64,000 bases of DNA from assembly GCF_900105115.1 (NCBI RefSeq), contig NZ_FNRV01000001.1, forward strand, positions 2,713,501 to 2,777,500, in the 5' to 3' direction. The position numbers and the translations under genes are program-made. Positions 12,164 to 47,624 of this stretch are shown here, piece after piece (positions within the stretch are counted from its first letter, which is position 1; each line of letters begins with the position of its first letter). This DNA is from Pseudomonas mohnii (GTDB lineage Bacteria > Pseudomonadota > Gammaproteobacteria > Pseudomonadales > Pseudomonadaceae). The notes beneath the pieces were generated by a model. The model did no database searches. It saw only the letters and a list, made by a program, of their open reading frames with translations, and was not told the DNA's origin.

Positions 12164-12250
12164 GCCCAGATGGTGAAATTGGTAGACACGCCAGCTTCAG
12201 GTGCTGGTGGCCTTACGGCCGTGGAAGTTCGAGTCTTCTTCTGGGCACCA
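12164..12250 (+). tRNA. tRNA-Leu (anticodon CAG), copy 1
   Basis: 87 bases including the encoded CCA. Acceptor GCCCAGA pairs with TCTGGGC; the anticodon arm is CCAGC-TTCAGGT-GCTGG, giving anticodon CAG for CUG codons; there is a class II long variable arm (TGGCCTTACGGCCG) and a T-arm with GTTCGAGTC. Preceded by its own promoter and followed by its own terminator. Confidence 0.97.
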
Positions 12251-12416: not shown

Positions 12417-12503
12417 GCCCAGATGGTGAAATTGGTAGACACGCCAGCTTCAGGTGCTGGTGGCCTTACGGCCGTGGAAGTTCGAGTCTTCTTCTGGGCA
12501 CCA
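12417..12503 (+). tRNA. tRNA-Leu (anticodon CAG), copy 2
   Basis: 87 bases, identical to copy 1 by direct reading, with encoded CCA. Offset from copy 1 is 253 bases, the same as for the promoters, indicating tandem duplication of a whole transcription unit. Confidence 0.97.
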
Positions 12504-37776: not shown

Positions 37777-40700
37777 TCAGTCGTCATCCACACTACTTTC
37801 ATCACCCGTTTCCAGCCCACTTTCATCGGATTCCGTTTCGATACCCAGATCATGAAATTCGTCTACCAACTCGTCATCCACCTGAATCAGGATCTGCTTA
37901 TCAATGCTGAAATTGTTTTTATATTCGGCAACACGTTGTTGACTCGCAGCACTCAGGGGGTTATCCGTAAAGTTGTAATTCACAGGGCGGGTATCAGGCA
38001 CATCGAATAACTCATCAGGCATTTCTACAATGTCATTGAACGTCAAGTCGGCAAACGCCAATTTTTCCAACCCAAACAGTCCATCGGGCACTTCCCTCAA
38101 TCCGGTGGACTTCAAGTGGAGCCGCTCAAGCTTCTTCATGTGGACCACCTGAGGGCTGAGACCCAACGGATTATTGTCCAGGTCCAACTCTTCAAGGTTC
38201 TCCATATGAGCCAACCCTTCTGCAGTAGCCTGCGTCAAACGAAGGTTGCAATTCTCGAGCGTCAGGCAGATGAGTGATCGCATCTGAAAGGTCTCGACAG
38301 GGAAGGCTTCCAGGCGAACGCCCCTCATCGTCAGGAACTGAAGATTGGGGAAGCGTTCAAGAAAGCGGCCCGCCCTTAGACAACCACTGCTGTTGACCAG
38401 CAAAAACTCGGACACATGACTGAAATCCGCCGACAGTTCAGGCAAGTCGCCAATGACGTCCAGTTTTGAAAAGAACCGGCTAGTGTCAAAGCGGTTTTCC
38501 GGGGTCAGTTGCCGGCGCCAACAGGCCTTCACCACCTCAATGAAAGCGGCGCGGTTACGCCTTTGCGCGGCGCTCACTTCGGCAGACAGTGCAACATCCG
38601 TCAGAGGGTGACGGGCGGGCACATCGTCGGCCCAGATCTGCAGGTCATTGAGCAGTGTCAGGTGTTCATTTTCCAGGTGGGCCAGGGCTGGCAACGGATC
38701 GGCACCCAGGCGGGTCTCTCGCAAGGTCTGTAAATCTTCTTCCGCCAACGTGGGAAACAGCCTGCGCAAGCGCGGCTCAATCGCGCCGGATGCCGCGGGC
38801 AGGCTGTCACCACCGCCCAGCAAATAACCAGAACGACCAACCGCCAGCCCCATGGGAGAGCGCGTACCGGGTTCCAGAGGCGGTTGCCCGAACAACGCTC
38901 GCAATTCGGACCGCGGCAGCAATGGCCGACGCCTGATGGCCTGCTCCAACTCCCCCCCCTGCCCGACGTGAGGCAAACCAATGGCTTCGCGCTGCGCCTG
39001 GGGCAACGCATGCTGGACAGCACCGAACAGATTATCCAGGCCATGGAGCGCCTCGCCATGCTCATCAAAGGCCTCGTATCGCCCCTGTTGCCTGACCAGA
39101 ACCTTGCGTATCGGCGCATCGGGGCGGCCGATGCTGTCATGCAGAGCGCCCGCCACATCGACGTCACGCACTTCGATGCGAATGTCCGCCGACCAGCCGT
39201 CGAGCGTTTCGAGCATATGCAGGGCCAGCATGTCCGTATCCGTGCTTGATTGCGCCTCCAGGTAGAGTCCCTCATAGGCGCGGTTCAGGCGCAATTCACG
39301 CAGGTAGTACAGCGCTTCGTGAGCCATTCGCCGCGGCATGCCATGCCTGTTGTGCAGGTGCAGGCGTTCGGCGGCTCCGGACTCGGCCCACAACTCCTGC
39401 GCGATCGTGCGCGGCAACCGTGGAAAAATCCGGCGCATCTGCCGGGTGTGGCTGTCCGCACCTGACTCGAAAGCCTCCTCAAGGGCCTCGAACAACTGTT
39501 CGCGACGGGTTTGTGCCCATTGCGCCATGCGGCTGCGCAGCAGCGAGGCACGAACCGTCACTGACGGCAGCGCGTCACCTGGCGCGGTGCTTAACCCAAG
39601 GAGTCTTTTCAGGGCCCCCTCTTCCAGTGTGGTCACAACGGTTTGAATCACGTTGCCGTCAAGCAACTGCCCCTCGGACAACACCACCTCCTGCGTCTTC
39701 AGCAGCTCCAATTGCAGAGACACGTCAGCCTTGGCGTAAATGCCAGGGTCCGGGCTCGCGACGTATTCACGGAATGCCCGAACCCGCTCATCGACCTTGA
39801 AACGTCGAATCGTATCCTCCAGCAAGGCCGGTGGACGCCGCGCGTGAACGTGCAGGTGCCGCAGCATCGCTTCATCGATCCCGCTGACCGCCAATATGCG
39901 TTGCGCGGTCTCGTCGGAAAATTCTGCAACCGAGTGCCCCAGCCGCCGGAACAGTTGCGCACCCTGCCATTGCATCGGTCGCTCGACCTCGTGGGCCCAG
40001 GCGCCGGCGCCGTTGTGGGCGAGTCGCGGTCGGTAGGCGTCGGCCCGCTGCGGGTGGCGAATGGAATATGTACCGCCTTCAGCCTCGGCGCCCACTGCAT
40101 AAGTGCGCCCCTCAAGCGTCAGAAAGGTTTTGCCAGCGTGATGCTGTAGCCCCTGCTCGTCCGGTATGCCGCCGGTCGGCAGCGCGGCGGTTTGTTCGTA
40201 GGGTTGCAGGTCGGGATTCCATAAACGCATGCGACCGTCGGACAGTGCTACCGGTTTAAGCCCCTTGATAAACGCCGACGGCTTGAGGGGAAGCACCTTT
40301 CCGGCCACAGCCCCCACCACCCCGAAAGCGCCGAGTTGCGCGAGGTTCTCGGCGATGACCAGCAGATGATCAGCCGCTTCGGACACTTGCCCTTCAGCCC
40401 AATCGAGAACACCGGTAAAGGCTTCATCGAGCAATTGATAAGCGGTATACGCCAGCATCACTTCACCCAGAAACGGCACGAAGGGCATTGCCACCAGGGT
40501 TGCGACCTGCACGACGATCGAAGCCACGTTTTCCAGGCTGTCCCACAGCGCCCAGCGCGACTGGCGATCCTCATCGGCCGTGGGCACGGCGATGATGCGC
40601 GCGTCATTGAGGATTTTGTCGAGCTTGTCCTGATACAGCCATTGCCATGGATCACCCTGAACCGGGTGCGCGTGGAATCGCAACTTGGGGTTGTCAACGG

Positions 40701-41790
40701 GCGTGCGTCGCCAGGCCGGCCGTGGGTCACCCGGCTGTACTGCGTGCCAGGTCTCGGCATTCAAGTGCTGGTCGAGCGCGGCAAAAAAATAACCGCGCTG
40801 CTCATGGGCGATAAACCGGGCAAAAAACCGTTGATAGGCCGGTGAACGCAGTTGCTCCGTCAATGCCGTCTTGAACGCCAGGGCCGACGGGTACTCTTTG
40901 ATCGGATGCTGCGGATCGTCAGGCACGTACACGATCAACGGTTCCACGCGCGATGAGCCTTCCAGATCACCCGCCAGCACCATGATCCCGGTCAGCCGGG
41001 CCGTCATGATCTGCAATTGGTAGCAGCGCAACGCCAGACTCGCCACGCCATCCAGCAGCCGCAGCAGCGACGCCAGGGAATCGGTGCCGATGTCACCTTT
41101 CATCCGCGCCAGGAGCACAGCCGCCCTGAACGCATCTTTTTGACTGGTCTTGACCCTGAACGCCAGTCCGACCCGGGCCACTGAATCCCTGGGTAACAGA
41201 ATCGCCTCCAATTGTGATGCGTACTGACCGCCGATATCCAGTTCGCGGCACATTGAAGCAAAGGCGCCGATCGTTATTCGTTCGTTAATGGGCAATACAT
41301 GAAAATGGCCATGGCTATCAGGTTCGCTGATAAAACAGGATGCATTATCAAAGTACTGGTCAGCGGTTTCCTTCTTCTCAAAGTTATGCAGGGCCGCGTC
41401 TAACAGGGAAAGGGTTTTAACTTGATACCCCGGCAAAATGCCTTTGGGCAAATAGAGCCGCACGTATGAGTGGGTAACATCGAGTTCGACGCCAAAACGA
41501 TTCTTCAGCGCCTGGCGCAGCAAGGGCTCGGCAAACCGACGGGCATCGGCCAACGACTCAAACACCCGGTCCAGCTTGGCCTGGGATATCCAGCTGGCTT
41601 TGACAGCCTGCGCCAACTCTGCGTGTGAAGCCGCTGATACCATTCGGTACCATTCAGGAACGATGACAGGCGCTTGCCGCAAAGCCAAGCGTCTGTCGGG
41701 TGATGCCTGGGTTAGCCAATCCGGAATTTTTTCTTCAATGAATCGCTTATGACCATCATCAGTGCAATGTTCTAAACATAGATCAACCAT
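37777..41790 (-). CDS. Giant DUF6543/leucine-rich-repeat effector-like protein, no NEL domain
   Basis: 1337 residues. The N-terminus HKRFIEEKIPDWLTQASPDR and the following 1000 residues look like the 'dermonecrotic toxin' DUF6543 region found in many large Pseudomonas proteins. There are hydrophobic segments near 425-470 (VASIVVQVATLVAMPFVPFL) and 485-505 (GAFGVVGAVAGKVLPL), perhaps for membrane insertion. Leucine-rich repeats span about 1116-1287 (NLQFLTMRGVRLEAFPVETF, NLEELDLDNNPLGLSPQV, KLERLHLKSTGLREVPDGLF). In related proteins an NEL E3 ubiquitin ligase domain with a catalytic Cys follows; here the protein ends after 50 residues with an acidic tail (ETESDESGLETGDESSVDDD). It is either a natural short form or a truncated effector. 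No signal peptide is seen. Targets are unknown. Confidence 0.82.
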   Translation of the reverse strand: MVDLCLEHCTDDGHKRFIEEKIPDWLTQASPDRRLALRQAPVIVPEWYRMVSAASHAELAQAVKASWISQAKLDRVFESLADARRFAEPLLRQALKNRFGVELDVTHSYVRLYLPKGILPGYQVKTLSLLDAALHNFEKKETADQYFDNASCFISEPDSHGHFHVLPINERITIGAFASMCRELDIGGQYASQLEAILLPRDSVARVGLAFRVKTSQKDAFRAAVLLARMKGDIGTDSLASLLRLLDGVASLALRCYQLQIMTARLTGIMVLAGDLEGSSRVEPLIVYVPDDPQHPIKEYPSALAFKTALTEQLRSPAYQRFFARFIAHEQRGYFFAALDQHLNAETWHAVQPGDPRPAWRRTPVDNPKLRFHAHPVQGDPWQWLYQDKLDKILNDARIIAVPTADEDRQSRWALWDSLENVASIVVQVATLVAMPFVPFLGEVMLAYTAYQLLDEAFTGVLDWAEGQVSEAADHLLVIAENLAQLGAFGVVGAVAGKVLPLKPSAFIKGLKPVALSDGRMRLWNPDLQPYEQTAALPTGGIPDEQGLQHHAGKTFLTLEGRTYAVGAEAEGGTYSIRHPQRADAYRPRLAHNGAGAWAHEVERPMQWQGAQLFRRLGHSVAEFSDETAQRILAVSGIDEAMLRHLHVHARRPPALLEDTIRRFKVDERVRAFREYVASPDPGIYAKADVSLQLELLKTQEVVLSEGQLLDGNVIQTVVTTLEEGALKRLLGLSTAPGDALPSVTVRASLLRSRMAQWAQTRREQLFEALEEAFESGADSHTRQMRRIFPRLPRTIAQELWAESGAAERLHLHNRHGMPRRMAHEALYYLRELRLNRAYEGLYLEAQSSTDTDMLALHMLETLDGWSADIRIEVRDVDVAGALHDSIGRPDAPIRKVLVRQQGRYEAFDEHGEALHGLDNLFGAVQHALPQAQREAIGLPHVGQGGELEQAIRRRPLLPRSELRALFGQPPLEPGTRSPMGLAVGRSGYLLGGGDSLPAASGAIEPRLRRLFPTLAEEDLQTLRETRLGADPLPALAHLENEHLTLLNDLQIWADDVPARHPLTDVALSAEVSAAQRRNRAAFIEVVKACWRRQLTPENRFDTSRFFSKLDVIGDLPELSADFSHVSEFLLVNSSGCLRAGRFLERFPNLQFLTMRGVRLEAFPVETFQMRSLICLTLENCNLRLTQATAEGLAHMENLEELDLDNNPLGLSPQVVHMKKLERLHLKSTGLREVPDGLFGLEKLAFADLTFNDIVEMPDELFDVPDTRPVNYNFTDNPLSAASQQRVAEYKNNFSIDKQILIQVDDELVDEFHDLGIETESDESGLETGDESSVDDD

Positions 41791-43400: not shown

Positions 43401-44432
43401 ATGGCCAAACGCCAACTCAATCGTCGTCAAAACTGGCGCATCGAAAAGATTCAGGGCGAACGCGCTGCCCGCGCCGCCAAACGCGAGTCCTCGGCTGTCG
43501 AGGCACTTGAGGGCGGCGACCTCGGCCCGGAACAGCACGGTCTGGTGATCGCGCACTTCGGCGTGCAAGTCGAAGTCGAGGCCGTAGATGGCGAACAGGC
43601 CGGTGAGGTTTTCCGTTGCCACCTGCGCGCCAACCTGCCGGCGCTGGTGACCGGCGACCGAGTGGTCTGGCGTGCCGGCAACCAGGGCATCGGCGTGATC
43701 GTGGCCCAATTGCCACGCAACACCGAACTCTGTCGTCCGGACAGCCGTGGCCAGCTCAAGCCAGTTGCGGCCAACGTCGACATGATCGTGATTGTCTTCG
43801 CCCCGCTGCCCGAACCCCATGCCAATCTGATCGACCGTTATCTGGTGGCGGCCGAACATGCGGGCATCAAGCCGTTGCTGTTGCTGAACAAATTCGACCT
43901 GATCGACGAAAACAACGCGCCGGCCCTGAACGCTCTGCTCGCGGTTTACCGCACGCTGGGTTACCCGGTGCTGGAAGTGTCGGCGCACCATGGCAACGGC
44001 ATGGAGCAACTTCAACAGCAGCTGGACGGACGCATCAGCGTGTTCGTCGGCCAGTCCGGTGTCGGCAAGTCATCGCTGGTCAACAGCCTGCTGCCCAACG
44101 TCGAAACCCGCGTCGGCCCGCTGTCCGAACTGTCCGGCCAGGGCACGCACACCACCACCACCGCGCGACTGTTCCACTTCCCCGGTGGCGGTGAGTTGAT
44201 CGACTCCCCGGGCATCCGCGAATTCGGCCTGGGCCACGTCAGCCGTGCCGACGTCGAAGCCGGTTTCATCGAGTTCAACGACCTGCTCGGCACCTGCCGC
44301 TTCCGCGACTGCAAGCACGACCGCGAGCCTGGTTGCGCCCTGCTCAAGGCCCTGGAAGATGGCCGCGTGCAACAGCAACGAATGAACAGCTACCGCTCGA
44401 TCATCGCCAGCCTGCCGGAAAACGGCTACTAA
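43401..44432 (+). CDS. rsgA: Ribosome small-subunit biogenesis GTPase RsgA
   Basis: 343 residues. A Lys/Arg-rich N-terminus ([20 protein letters not shown]) is followed by an OB-fold, then a circularly permuted G domain with the motif order NKFDL (G4), [16 protein letters not shown] (G1) and [10 protein letters not shown] (G3). A zinc-knuckle [11 protein letters not shown] lies near the C-terminus. It checks maturation of the 30S decoding centre. A GC-rich hairpin follows, and the second accessory insert begins 212 bases downstream. Confidence 0.97.
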
Positions 44433-44577: not shown

Positions 44578-44605
44578 TTGTTAGCGCCACTCAATTGCAT
44601 ACATT
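44578..44605 (+). promoter_or_regulatory. Possible promoter of the TIR-caspase operon
   Basis: TTGTTA (44578-44583), 16-base spacer, TACATT (44600-44605), 38 bases before the first TIR gene. The hexamers are moderate matches only. Upstream sequence from 44474 shows no other gene. Confidence 0.35.
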
Positions 44606-44643
44606 CGAACCCTCTTCGCATTCAGGCGACACCGAGGGCACCC

Positions 44644-45051
44644 ATGCAAACCTATCACCTGTTCATCAGCCATTCGTGGAACTACTCCGATGCCCACGAC
44701 AGACTGGTAAAACTGCTCACCGCGCACCCGACCTTCACCTTCAAGAACTTTTCAGTCCCCCCACACAATCCAATCGTTGGCGCACAAACCGACAAGCAAC
44801 TTGAGCTGGCCATTGAAAACAAAATCCGCCCTTGTTCGGCGGTGCTGATCATGGCCGGGATGTATTCGGCCTACAGCAAATGGATCAACAAAGAGATCGA
44901 AATCGCCAAGCGCATGGGCAAGGTGATCATTGCGATCAAACCATTCGGCGCCGAGCGTATTTCCACGGTGGTGCGGGACGCCGCACATGCCGAATGTGCG
45001 TGGAACACCAACAGCATTGTCAGTGCCATTCGTCAGCATACGGCGGTGTAA
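44644..45051 (+). CDS. ThsB-like TIR protein (DUF1863/MTH538 type), first gene of TIR-caspase operon
   Basis: 135 residues from MQTYHLFISHSWNYSDAHDR; GAGGG lies upstream. The fold signature is TIR-like: a first strand YHLFISHSW, a D-rich box, PCSAVLIMAGMYSAYS, then WINKEIEIAKRMGKVIIAIK. Glu84 in W80-INKE is at the position of the catalytic NADase glutamate of TIR enzymes. Proteins of this DUF1863 type act as ThsB in Thoeris defence, sensing infection and making a cyclic ADP-ribose-type signal from NAD (family knowledge). The gene is separated from the caspase-like gene by two bases. Whether this TIR or the one downstream makes the signal cannot be told from sequence. Confidence 0.9.
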   Translation: MQTYHLFISHSWNYSDAHDRLVKLLTAHPTFTFKNFSVPPHNPIVGAQTDKQLELAIENKIRPCSAVLIMAGMYSAYSKWINKEIEIAKRMGKVIIAIKPFGAERISTVVRDAAHAECAWNTNSIVSAIRQHTAV

Positions 45052-45053
45052 CC

Positions 45054-46013
45054 ATGCGCAAGGGATTGTTTATCGGCATTAACAACTACACCCATGTTTC
45101 CCAGTTGATTGGCTGCAACAACGACGCGATGGCCATGGCCTCGGTATTGAAGACCGACGCCAATGGAGATCCGAACTTCAAGAACATCGTGCTCACCTCC
45201 GCCGAAGACTACTTGAGTCGCGAAAAGCTCGAAGACCAGATCCGCGAACTGTTCTCCGGTGACTGCAACGTCGCGCTGCTGTATTTCGCCGGCCACGGCA
45301 GTTTCGACCTCGATACCGACGAAGGCATGCTGATCCCTCAGGATTACAAGTCCGCAAAGGACGGCATCCGGATCAGCGATATCCTGAACTGGGCGAGCAA
45401 AGCCACGAAAATCAAAAACAAGGTCATCATTCTCGACTGCTGCCAGGGCGGGTCGGCCGGCGAAATACGCGCATTGCGCAGCGAGAGCAGCGTGATTGGC
45501 GAGGGCATGACCATTCTGACGGCGTGCAAAAAAGAACAGCCGGCGATGGAAGGCGCCGGCCACGGAGTCTTCACCGGTTTGCTGCTTCAGGCATTGCATG
45601 GCGGTGCCGCGAACATTCTCGGCAAAATTACGCCCGGCAGCCTCTATTCATTCGTCGACAACGCCCTCGACGCCTGGGAGCAGCGGCCGGTGTTCAAGAC
45701 CAATGTGTCGCAGTTCATTTCCCTGCGCGAGGTCTCGCCGCTGATCCCCAAGGAAATCCTGCGCAAGCTGCCCGAGTGGTTTGCCGAAGCGGAGTCGGTC
45801 TACCCCCTCGCCCCCAGCTTTGAGCCCACCGAACCTGAATTCAACCCGGAGCACGGCGAAGTCTTCGCCCAACTGCAAAAGTGCAACCGCCACAGCCTGG
45901 TCGAACCAGTGGATGCCGAACATATGTATTACGCGGCCATTCACTCCACCGGATGCCGCCTCACCGCCCTCGGCGCCTATTACCGCGAACTGGCCATCAA
46001 GGGACATTTCTGA
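45054..46013 (+). CDS. Caspase-like protease (peptidase C14), TIR-caspase operon
   Basis: 319 residues. The caspase/metacaspase p20-like domain covers about 1-200: MRKGLFIGINNYTHVSQLIG at the start, catalytic His81 in LLYFAGHGSFD, and the catalytic cysteine (Cys130, next to Cys129) in IILDCCQGGSAGE; also MTILTACKKEQPAMEGAGHG. No membrane segment or signal peptide, so it acts in the cytoplasm. The C-terminal 120 residues (from about 200) match nothing I know and could bind the TIR-made nucleotide. Flanked by TIR genes with two-base and overlapping junctions, it is the probable effector: once switched on it would cleave cell proteins and stop phage growth, as reported for type IV Thoeris. The activating molecule here is inferred. 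Confidence 0.92.
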   Translation: MRKGLFIGINNYTHVSQLIGCNNDAMAMASVLKTDANGDPNFKNIVLTSAEDYLSREKLEDQIRELFSGDCNVALLYFAGHGSFDLDTDEGMLIPQDYKSAKDGIRISDILNWASKATKIKNKVIILDCCQGGSAGEIRALRSESSVIGEGMTILTACKKEQPAMEGAGHGVFTGLLLQALHGGAANILGKITPGSLYSFVDNALDAWEQRPVFKTNVSQFISLREVSPLIPKEILRKLPEWFAEAESVYPLAPSFEPTEPEFNPEHGEVFAQLQKCNRHSLVEPVDAEHMYYAAIHSTGCRLTALGAYYRELAIKGHF

Positions 46014-46504
46014 TGCCTGTGTTTATCAGCTACCGCCACATGGATCGCGCCTATGCGATGAACATCAACAGCCGCCTGATGCAGGCCAACATCAGAACTT
46101 ATCTGGATGTGATGGACCCAGAGTCCCAGACCACCGACGACATCACCGGCGTAATCACCCGCAATATCAGTGAGTGCACGCATTTGCTGGCGGTGGTATC
46201 GGAAAAAACCGCGCTGTCCTGGTGGGTGCCGTTCGAAATTGGCGAGGCGACCATTACCAACCGGCGCATCTGCTCGTTCAAGACCGGACCGACAGAATTG
46301 CCGCTGTACCTCGATAAATGGCCGAAACTGACGCGTGAAAAGGACATCGATTTTTTCATCGAGGCCTATCGCGATGAAGCGACACTCAAACGCTCGATGT
46401 CACTGGAATCGCTCACCGGCAGCGAATCTGTACGAAGCGTCAACAGGACTAACGCCGATCGCTTTCATACTGACCTCAAATCCAGAATCTCTCGCGGTTT
46501 CTGA
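46013..46504 (+). CDS. TIR-domain protein, third gene of TIR-caspase operon
   Basis: 163 residues; the ATG overlaps the caspase stop (TGATG), so the two are translationally coupled. The TIR core is clear: MPVFISYRHMDRAYAMNINS (box 1), LDVMDPES, ECTHLLAVVSEKTALSWWVP, and WVPFEIGEA with Glu75 at the catalytic position. The C-terminal 50 residues are polar, with a helix-rich ending, and are not assigned. It is clearly different in sequence from the first TIR protein of the operon. It may be the NADase that signals, or a partner that senses phage; a bidirectional terminator follows 13 bases after the stop. Confidence 0.92.
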   Translation: MPVFISYRHMDRAYAMNINSRLMQANIRTYLDVMDPESQTTDDITGVITRNISECTHLLAVVSEKTALSWWVPFEIGEATITNRRICSFKTGPTELPLYLDKWPKLTREKDIDFFIEAYRDEATLKRSMSLESLTGSESVRSVNRTNADRFHTDLKSRISRGF

Positions 46505-46516
46505 AATCGCGCCCAC

Positions 46517-46548
46517 AAAAAAGGCCGACAGCGATGTCGGCCTTTTTT
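46517..46548. terminator. Bidirectional terminator between TIR operon and motB
   Basis: AAAAAAGGCCGACA-GCGA-TGTCGGCCTTTTTT, a 14-bp perfect stem with A/T runs on both sides, serving the convergent TIR operon and motAB. Confidence 0.9.
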
Positions 46549-46553
46549 GTGGA

Positions 46554-47624
46554 TCACTGCTTCGGCGCTGGGGCCGGTGCAGTGGCGGGGGCTGGTGCCG
46601 CACTCCCGGGTGCTGACGGTTTCGGCGCCGGATCTTCGAACAAATTCAGACGCTCACGAAGCTCGTGGGCCGGCAGCGGTTCCTTGTCCGCCGGCAACGC
46701 ATTTGGATCGGCGGGGGTAGCCGGCGCTGCTCCGGGCGTCTCGCTTCCTTTCGTGGCATCAGGGGCAGGTTCGGCCCCTTGCGAGCCTTCGATGGCGCGT
46801 TGGGCTTTCTTGGTCAGCACGATGATGTCGATACGACGGTTGATCGGATTGAACGGATGTTCACGATCAAACAGCGCCGATGAGGCATACCCCACGACAC
46901 GCGCCACCTGCTGATCCGGATAGCTTCCCGCGACCAGCGCACGGCGGGCGGCGTTGGCACGGTTGGCCGAAAGTTCCCAGTTGCCGAAATCACCGGTGCC
47001 GGTGTACGGCTTGGCATCGGTATGGCCGCTGATGCTGATCTTGTTCGGCACCGCTTTGATGGTGTCGGCCATGGCCAGCAGGATGTCTTCGAAATACGGC
47101 TTCAAGCGAGCACTGCCGGAGTCGAACATCGGCCGGTTTTCGGCGTCCACGATCTGGATGCGCAAACCGTCCGGAGTGATCTCGAACATGATCTGGTCTT
47201 TGAATTTCTGCAGCTGCGGATTCTCTTCGACCTTGTTCTGCAACTCTTGCAGCAACAGTTCGAGACGCTCCTTCTCGACCATCTCGGCCATGCCTTCGAC
47301 CTGTTCGGCGTCGACGGTTACCTTGTCCGGTTGTGGCTGGGACTTCACCTCGGGGTTGAGGGTGTTTTCCGGCGCCAGGGTCGGCGTGCCGCCCAGATCG
47401 ATGATGTACGGCGTGCCGCTTTCCGAGAAGCCGATCGGGTCCTTGAAGTAACCGGCGATGGCGATCTTCTGCTCCGGCGTCGCCGTGGACAACAGCCACA
47501 ACACCAGGAAGAACGCCATCATCGCCGTGGCGAAGTCGGCGAAGGCGATTTTCCAGGCGCCCCCGTGATGCCCACCGGCGTAGCGCTTGACGCGCTTGAT
47601 GATTATCGGCTGATTGTTCTCCAT
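46554..47624 (-). CDS. motB: Flagellar motor stator protein MotB
   Basis: 356 residues. The N-terminus MENNQPIIIKRVKRYAGGHH is cytoplasmic; one membrane segment (KIAFADFATAMMAFFLVLWL) holds the proton-accepting Asp; a plug/linker region follows. The OmpA-like peptidoglycan-binding domain is at about 170-290 (KISISGHTDAKPYTGTGDFG, NWELSANRANAARRAL). The C-terminal 80 residues are Pro/Ala-rich. With MotA it makes the proton-driven stator. Located two bases after motA. Confidence 0.96.
   Translation of the reverse strand: MENNQPIIIKRVKRYAGGHHGGAWKIAFADFATAMMAFFLVLWLLSTATPEQKIAIAGYFKDPIGFSESGTPYIIDLGGTPTLAPENTLNPEVKSQPQPDKVTVDAEQVEGMAEMVEKERLELLLQELQNKVEENPQLQKFKDQIMFEITPDGLRIQIVDAENRPMFDSGSARLKPYFEDILLAMADTIKAVPNKISISGHTDAKPYTGTGDFGNWELSANRANAARRALVAGSYPDQQVARVVGYASSALFDREHPFNPINRRIDIIVLTKKAQRAIEGSQGAEPAPDATKGSETPGAAPATPADPNALPADKEPLPAHELRERLNLFEDPAPKPSAPGSAAPAPATAPAPAPKQ

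Follow-up and report, generated by a model that had tools for sequence, protein, structure and literature searches.

The operon analysed here consists of three plus-strand genes, which encode a TIR-domain protein (TIR1), a caspase-like protease and a second TIR-domain protein (TIR2), and it lies in a 64,000-nucleotide stretch of Pseudomonas mohnii DNA (contig NZ_FNRV01000001.1, positions 2,713,501 to 2,777,500), hereafter called the window. We consider that it is probably a chromosomal abortive-infection system of the TIR-caspase kind, similar to type IV Thoeris, which employs two TIR enzymes. TIR1 and the caspase constitute a mobile core to which TIR2 is an accessory, unseen in 37 of the 48 TIR-caspase loci compared, and the Pseudomonas operon keeps to a single place in the core genome, between rsgA and motB; an earlier note on this DNA had overlooked both points. 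If the reading is right, TIR-caspase immunity has a two-TIR form in which the second TIR depends on the caspase.

TIR1 (135 residues, 44644..45051) begins with the ATG at 44644 and has its catalytic Glu at position 84; it is predicted to make a signal from nicotinamide adenine dinucleotide (NAD+). The protease (319 residues, 45054..46013) carries His81 in the motif AGHG, Asp128, and Cys130 in LDCCQGG, and TIR2 (163 residues, 46013..46504) carries Glu75 in WWVPFE. The TIR1 and caspase genes are separated by 2 bases (45052-45053) and the caspase and TIR2 genes overlap in a TGATG at 46011-46015; these coordinates and the translations confirm the plus-strand trio, the gap and the overlap described in the earlier note. 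The start which that note gave, 44578, is an upstream TTG in the same frame, but its own numbering of Glu84 matches the ATG at 44644.

The results of Pfam profile searches showed that TIR1 belongs to ThsB_TIR (PF08937; expectation value (E) 2.1e-14, 54.1 bits against a cut-off of 21.2), the middle protein to Peptidase_C14 (PF00656; E 6.5e-19, 69 bits against 21.4) and TIR2 to TIR_2 (PF13676; E 1.3e-12, 48.7 bits against 28), TIR2 also giving a weaker ThsB_TIR match (E 4.5e-5, 24.2 bits against 21.2). The proposed TIR, C14 caspase and TIR families were thus borne out, and Glu84, His81, Cys130 and Glu75 all stand at the positions claimed for them. The best PADLOC match was ThsB for both TIR1 and TIR2 and "caspase" for the middle protein. 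F7, S37, E84 and W120 of TIR1 are invariant across 19 aligned relatives; F7 and E84 are present in all 42 full-length copies found in a survey of 398 Pseudomonas genomes, and an overlapping set of 82 copies has E84 in 80, TIR1 being partly deleted at the loci of the other two. For TIR2, the structural model used was the best of five, of which the mean predicted local distance difference test scores were 84.5, 64.6, 62.6, 62.0 and 59.9.

The caspase domain of the middle protein extends over residues 1 to about 228 and is followed by a conserved C-terminal domain (about 235-319). A caspase fold with a correctly placed His/Cys dyad had been named beforehand as something the proposal depended on, and both were found in the predicted structure, for which the structural matches listed span residues 1 to about 230. 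In single-sequence searches of the PDB, the caspase found only weak matches (best E 0.046), and those of the TIR proteins were short or weak. The fold and the dyad are shared with metacaspases and the MALT1 paracaspase, and Asp128 stands two residues ahead of Cys130, as in yeast metacaspase 1; an Asp at this place serves the S1 pocket in proteases of the metacaspase/MALT1 type. Unlike those proteases, the protein has the extra C-terminal domain of the TIR-linked family and is encoded in an operon with TIR genes. The EACC1-associated caspase model of NCBIfam (NF047832) also matches the caspase domain (E 2.5e-26), but with 92.5 bits the score is below the cut-off of 140 and the partners here are TIR proteins, and a plain EACC1 caspase system was therefore rejected. 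In one caspase relative, that of Pseudomonas sp. LS1212, an Asn occupies the position of the catalytic His; judging from this residue, it is perhaps another dead caspase, like the one described below.

The paper defining type IV Thoeris is reportedly that of Rousset et al. (Science, 2025). Two articles (PMC12847820, PMC13373217) describe type IV Thoeris as a TIR protein together with a caspase-like protease. In the window operon, too, a TIR gene immediately precedes the gene of a C14 caspase-like protein, and the catalytic TIR Glu and the His/Cys dyad are conserved; the operon differs in its second TIR gene and in its fixed rsgA-motB site. No model named type IV was among the NCBIfam matches. 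The type I Thoeris of Staphylococcus aureus (ThsB1/ThsB2/ThsA), as presented in PMC12578639, resembles the operon in having two TIR proteins and one effector, and TIR1 is of the ThsB type by both PF08937 and the PADLOC ThsB model PDLC00418 (E 6.3e-12). However, the effector here is caspase-like rather than a SIR2-SLOG ThsA, and both TIR Glu residues are conserved; type I was ruled out, since TIR1, the caspase and TIR2 fill the rsgA-motB interval and there is no ThsA. The earlier suggestion of a type IV Thoeris-like system thus finds partial support, in the families, the active sites, the operon structure, the predicted caspase fold and the recurrence of the TIR1-caspase pair on mobile elements. 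No description of a two-TIR TIR-caspase operon or of the rsgA-motB site was found in the literature searched (open-licence papers, mostly by listing), and the two-TIR form at one chromosomal site is likely to be a new form of the known TIR-caspase immunity, with an immune role for the operon likewise likely.

In addition to the window, 76 Pseudomonas loci (L002-L077; L043, L071 and L077 are partial or in two pieces) have the caspase gene adjoining rsgA or orn, by which chance open reading frames are ruled out. At a coverage of at least 85%, the flanks of the 77 loci comprise rsgA in 76, orn in 77 and motB in 68; where motB is missing, in some loci the contig ends first. P. moorei and one strain of P. 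fluorescens have the closest relatives of the window caspase, with identities of 98% and 97%. Pieces included, the family caspase occurs in 29 of 249 Pseudomonas genomes, 28 of which also have TIR2 (the exception is genome G203). L328, which lies on a deep branch of the tree, also has the operon at this site, the caspase there being split between two frames. P. baetica 25P2F9 (L078) has an additional caspase, broken and accompanied by TIR2, away from rsgA, and L306 looks like the same copy.

TIR2 profile matches were obtained in 81 of the 398 Pseudomonas genomes, at 83 places including the window, and all of them were classed. All 47 loci with an adjacent caspase (45 full-length; L306 and L328 broken) retain the Glu corresponding to Glu75, and all 35 loci without one have lost it, with Leu (18), Gln (8), Ser (4), Gly (3) or Ala (2) in its place. 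The one other locus, L295, is cut off by the end of its contig: of the caspase only the final 24 residues are there, the remainder being on another contig, and the Glu is kept. The 35 caspase-less loci all adjoin rsgA, 34 of them also motB, and no family caspase was found elsewhere in their genomes (22 plus 13 genomes searched). TIR1 does not account for this pattern: four loci that have lost TIR1 (L300, L301, L304 and L326) keep both the caspase dyad and the TIR2 Glu. No window-type TIR1 was found in the genomes of these four; Pieces resembling an end of TIR1 reach scores of 39-41 in L301, L304 and L326; these scores had no shuffle control and the pieces may be due to chance, and L300 has none. 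One locus without TIR1 or TIR2, L332, was taken separately: it has a full-length caspase in which Phe replaces Cys130, and no TIR1 match was found elsewhere in its genome. In L226 and L227, an aminotransferase-like gene (argD-like by eye) is inserted between rsgA and TIR2.

A protein search gave 4748 caspase homologues at E <= 0.001. The full-length family is well separated from other caspases: fragments aside, its members score 325-525 bits and the others no more than 76. The caspase was matched by 67 of 72,556 plasmid records, in 42 cases with a query coverage of 80% or more, and by 2 of 50,697 phage records. Together with other loci, 26 neighbourhoods from the plasmid and phage collections made up 55 loci outside the Pseudomonas site, which were reduced to 48 non-redundant ones by collapsing those more than 90% identical. 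TIR1 lies at most 500 bases upstream of the caspase in 43 of the 48, is on the other strand in L210 and L175 and downstream in L176, and was not detected in L171 and L190 at the threshold used; TIR2 was found in 11. It is from these counts that TIR1 and the caspase are taken as the core and TIR2 as accessory. The pair occurs on plasmids, viral contigs and chromosomes of at least three phyla, as would be expected of a defence module that moves. TIR2 may be downstream or upstream of the core, and its catalytic Glu is kept in all 8 examined of the 11. A small gene for a ryanodine receptor (RyR)-like protein is present in 16 loci, both accessories in 8 and neither in 29, and these accessory counts are lower bounds because some loci have short flanks.

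Of 12 RyR candidates, 10 match Pfam RyR (PF02026) at E <= 0.05 (best 1.1e-4), with three scores, 18.4, 20.1 and 20.8 bits, all below the cut-off of 27.4; a profile built from the 12 proteins matched ryanodine-receptor chains in 15 of its 16 matches, over about 27 profile positions only. These genes of about 90 residues, with a motif near EHERWAHWQ, stand directly after the caspase, mostly on plasmids (L098, L102, L105, L106, L209, L211-L213, L215-L217 and L219). According to PMC13232231, 2' and 3' cyclic ADP-ribose (cADPR) are degraded by one phage protein with an RyR domain and sequestered by others of this kind; by analogy, it is conceivable that the RyR-like gene encodes a host handler of ADP-ribose signals. 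Other third genes were also seen: one for 174-176 residues with hydrophobic stretches, SLATT-like by eye only, in the viral-contig loci L166-L169; one that is SLOG-like by eye (GITGHQEL) and has no Pfam match, in Bacillus subtilis pBS72 (L103:4960-5445); and two genes, for a subtilase and for a CHAT-domain protein, between the caspase and TIR2 in L095 (5007-7391), to which L108 seems similar, judged by the start of its third gene.

Identity to the window caspase divides 75 of the 77 loci into two caspase classes, A (48 loci, mean identity 91% within) and B (27 loci, 87% within), with 74% between them; the class ranges overlap, the lowest values within being 83% and 72% and the highest between 81%. 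On the caspase tree the classes correspond to one split with a support of 100. Well-supported branches of quick trees force at least 7 class changes on rsgA plus orn, 9 on TIR2 and 3 on the poorly resolved TIR1, and thus the caspase gene has been replaced in place while its neighbours stayed. If this is true, an effector gene is exchanged among lineages beside stable neighbours, which points to selection on the protease.

In the proposed mechanism, infection would lead one or both TIR proteins to convert NAD+ into an ADP-ribose-type messenger (N7-cADPR if the system is type IV proper). The messenger would bind a ligand site in the C-terminal domain of the caspase and free the protease domain, which, by analogy with metacaspases and MALT1, would cleave cell proteins probably after basic residues and so stop phage growth. 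TIR2 would be a second catalytically active TIR for the same protease, that is, a second sensor or signal branch and not a bystander; the anatomy of the proteins suggests that both TIRs are active enzymes and that the protease stays inactive until it is bound. Two TIR enzymes serving one protease is the simplest reading of two facts: loci retain TIR2 catalysis only where they have the protease, and the protease and TIR2 persist without TIR1. Several observations weigh against it. TIR1 alone seems to be enough at most loci outside the Pseudomonas site, where TIR2 would be dispensable in general, and a stable core-genome site is unusual for a phage-defence module. The genome of L326 (G1236) harbours a second TIR-caspase system, L330, which may stand in for the missing TIR1 in trans. 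L329 keeps TIR1 with its Glu though the caspase is lost and TIR2 has Gly; a possible short caspase scar, seen by eye, was not flagged by a shuffle-controlled remnant scan. Furthermore, on a quick rsgA plus orn tree (80 of 84 rows, four without rsgA being left out) there are 3 changes for the caspase and 2 for the Glu, and an independent-pair test yielded 2 pairs, both as expected (sign test p 0.5). The counts of 47 and 35 are not replicates, because the tree holds only 2-3 independent changes. With a midpoint root and a Glu that is never regained, the tree implies one loss each in L329, in the L226/L227 pair and in a clade of 32 rows, three in all.

The principal rival to two active TIR enzymes is a division of labour, in which one TIR would bind the phage trigger and recruit the other, the sole maker of the messenger. 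It has a precedent in the staphylococcal system, where, according to PMC12578639, the major head protein is bound by ThsB1, which recruits ThsB2; Glu81 of ThsB2 is needed there, and the active-site residue of ThsB1 is not. In our loci, however, both Glu residues are kept beside the caspase (TIR1 41 of 41 full-length copies, the 42nd being that of L329; TIR2 in every case, as above), which weakens this explanation, and the loci without TIR1 retain an intact caspase and TIR2; we regard it as unlikely. It is still less likely that TIR2 is a regulator or off-switch whose task after the alarm would be to use up the messenger or NAD+, in the slot held elsewhere by the RyR-like protein. The commonness of the RyR-like third gene, the Pfam matches of its products and the phage RyR-domain enzyme mentioned above speak for such a role, but TIR2 can lie on either side of the core, and a replacement of RyR by TIR2 was rejected because both occur in 8 of the 48 loci. 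Equally improbable is that the operon, rather than being a phage defence, serves Pseudomonas as a cell-death circuit for stress or at the population level. Its core-genome site is fixed, it persists across many species, and no defence gene was recognised by eye among the neighbouring translations; on the other hand, relatives of the core lie on viral contigs and on plasmids near toxin-antitoxin and recombinase genes, the caspase alleles have been swapped repeatedly, as under conflict, and the operon was lost in several lineages.

The solo TIR2 genes pose a separate question, namely the fate of immune enzymes once their effector is lost. It is quite possible, although we propose it only tentatively, that dismantled immune systems leave a kept dead TIR2, and in one case a dead caspase, at the rsgA-motB site, turned to non-enzymatic uses, for example as decoys, sponges or dominant-negative partners against TIR systems of plasmids or phages. 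Another possibility, which we also rate below even, is that the loss of the Glu is plain decay without functional meaning after one or a few old caspase losses. Decay would fit the small number of independent events, the five different residues replacing the Glu, and the faster evolution of the solo genes: for pairs with a synonymous divergence (dS) between 0.05 and 1, the median ratio of nonsynonymous to synonymous divergence (dN/dS) is 0.24 for solo TIR2 (162 pairs, 0.02-1.06) against 0.15 for caspase-linked TIR2 (433 pairs, 0-0.33), the rsgA plus orn values being 0.075 and 0.037. It fits poorly with the facts that, L329 aside, 34 of 34 solo TIR2 are full-length (152-160 residues), that their eight closest pairs have dN/dS of 0.04-0.15, and that many positions, including the C terminus, are identical in at least 90% of the copies. 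On these substitution patterns, solo TIR2 appears to be mostly under purifying selection. When the DNA upstream of the 34 solo TIR2 was scanned for what might be left of the caspase or TIR1 (30 shuffles each), mostly nothing was found; the only clear exceedance was TIR1 in L220 (54 against a shuffled maximum of 39), and marginal caspase scores were given by L221 (45/39), L232 (40/38) and L315 (34/30). If the two-TIR reading is right, the Pseudomonas loci form a natural series, from the full operon to loci that lack TIR1, the caspase or the TIRs, for testing each part of the system.

The left flank of the operon is rsgA (43401..44432, +; Pfam RsgA_GTPase, E 2.2e-57). The right flank (46554..47624, -) is presumably motB, a name given from its translated sequence and from a motA-like neighbour. 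The guanine-plus-cytosine (GC) fraction is 0.53 in TIR1, 0.58 in the caspase and 0.54 in TIR2, against 0.64 in rsgA and 0.62 in motB. A promoter scan found none, and a terminator scan gave no more matches than in shuffles. An inverted repeat with A and T runs, recognised by eye only at 46517..46548 (46523-46548 for the repeat with its T run) and absent from the scan list, is a candidate terminator common to TIR2 (+) and motB (-); its end agrees with the end, 46548, that the earlier note had assigned to the operon. Elsewhere in the window, 37777-41790 (-) encodes a protein of 1337 residues with leucine-rich repeats by eye, adjoining a low-GC stretch (0.48 at 36-38 kb), and a closely spaced pair of tRNA-Leu (cag) genes is located at 12164-12250 and 12417-12503.
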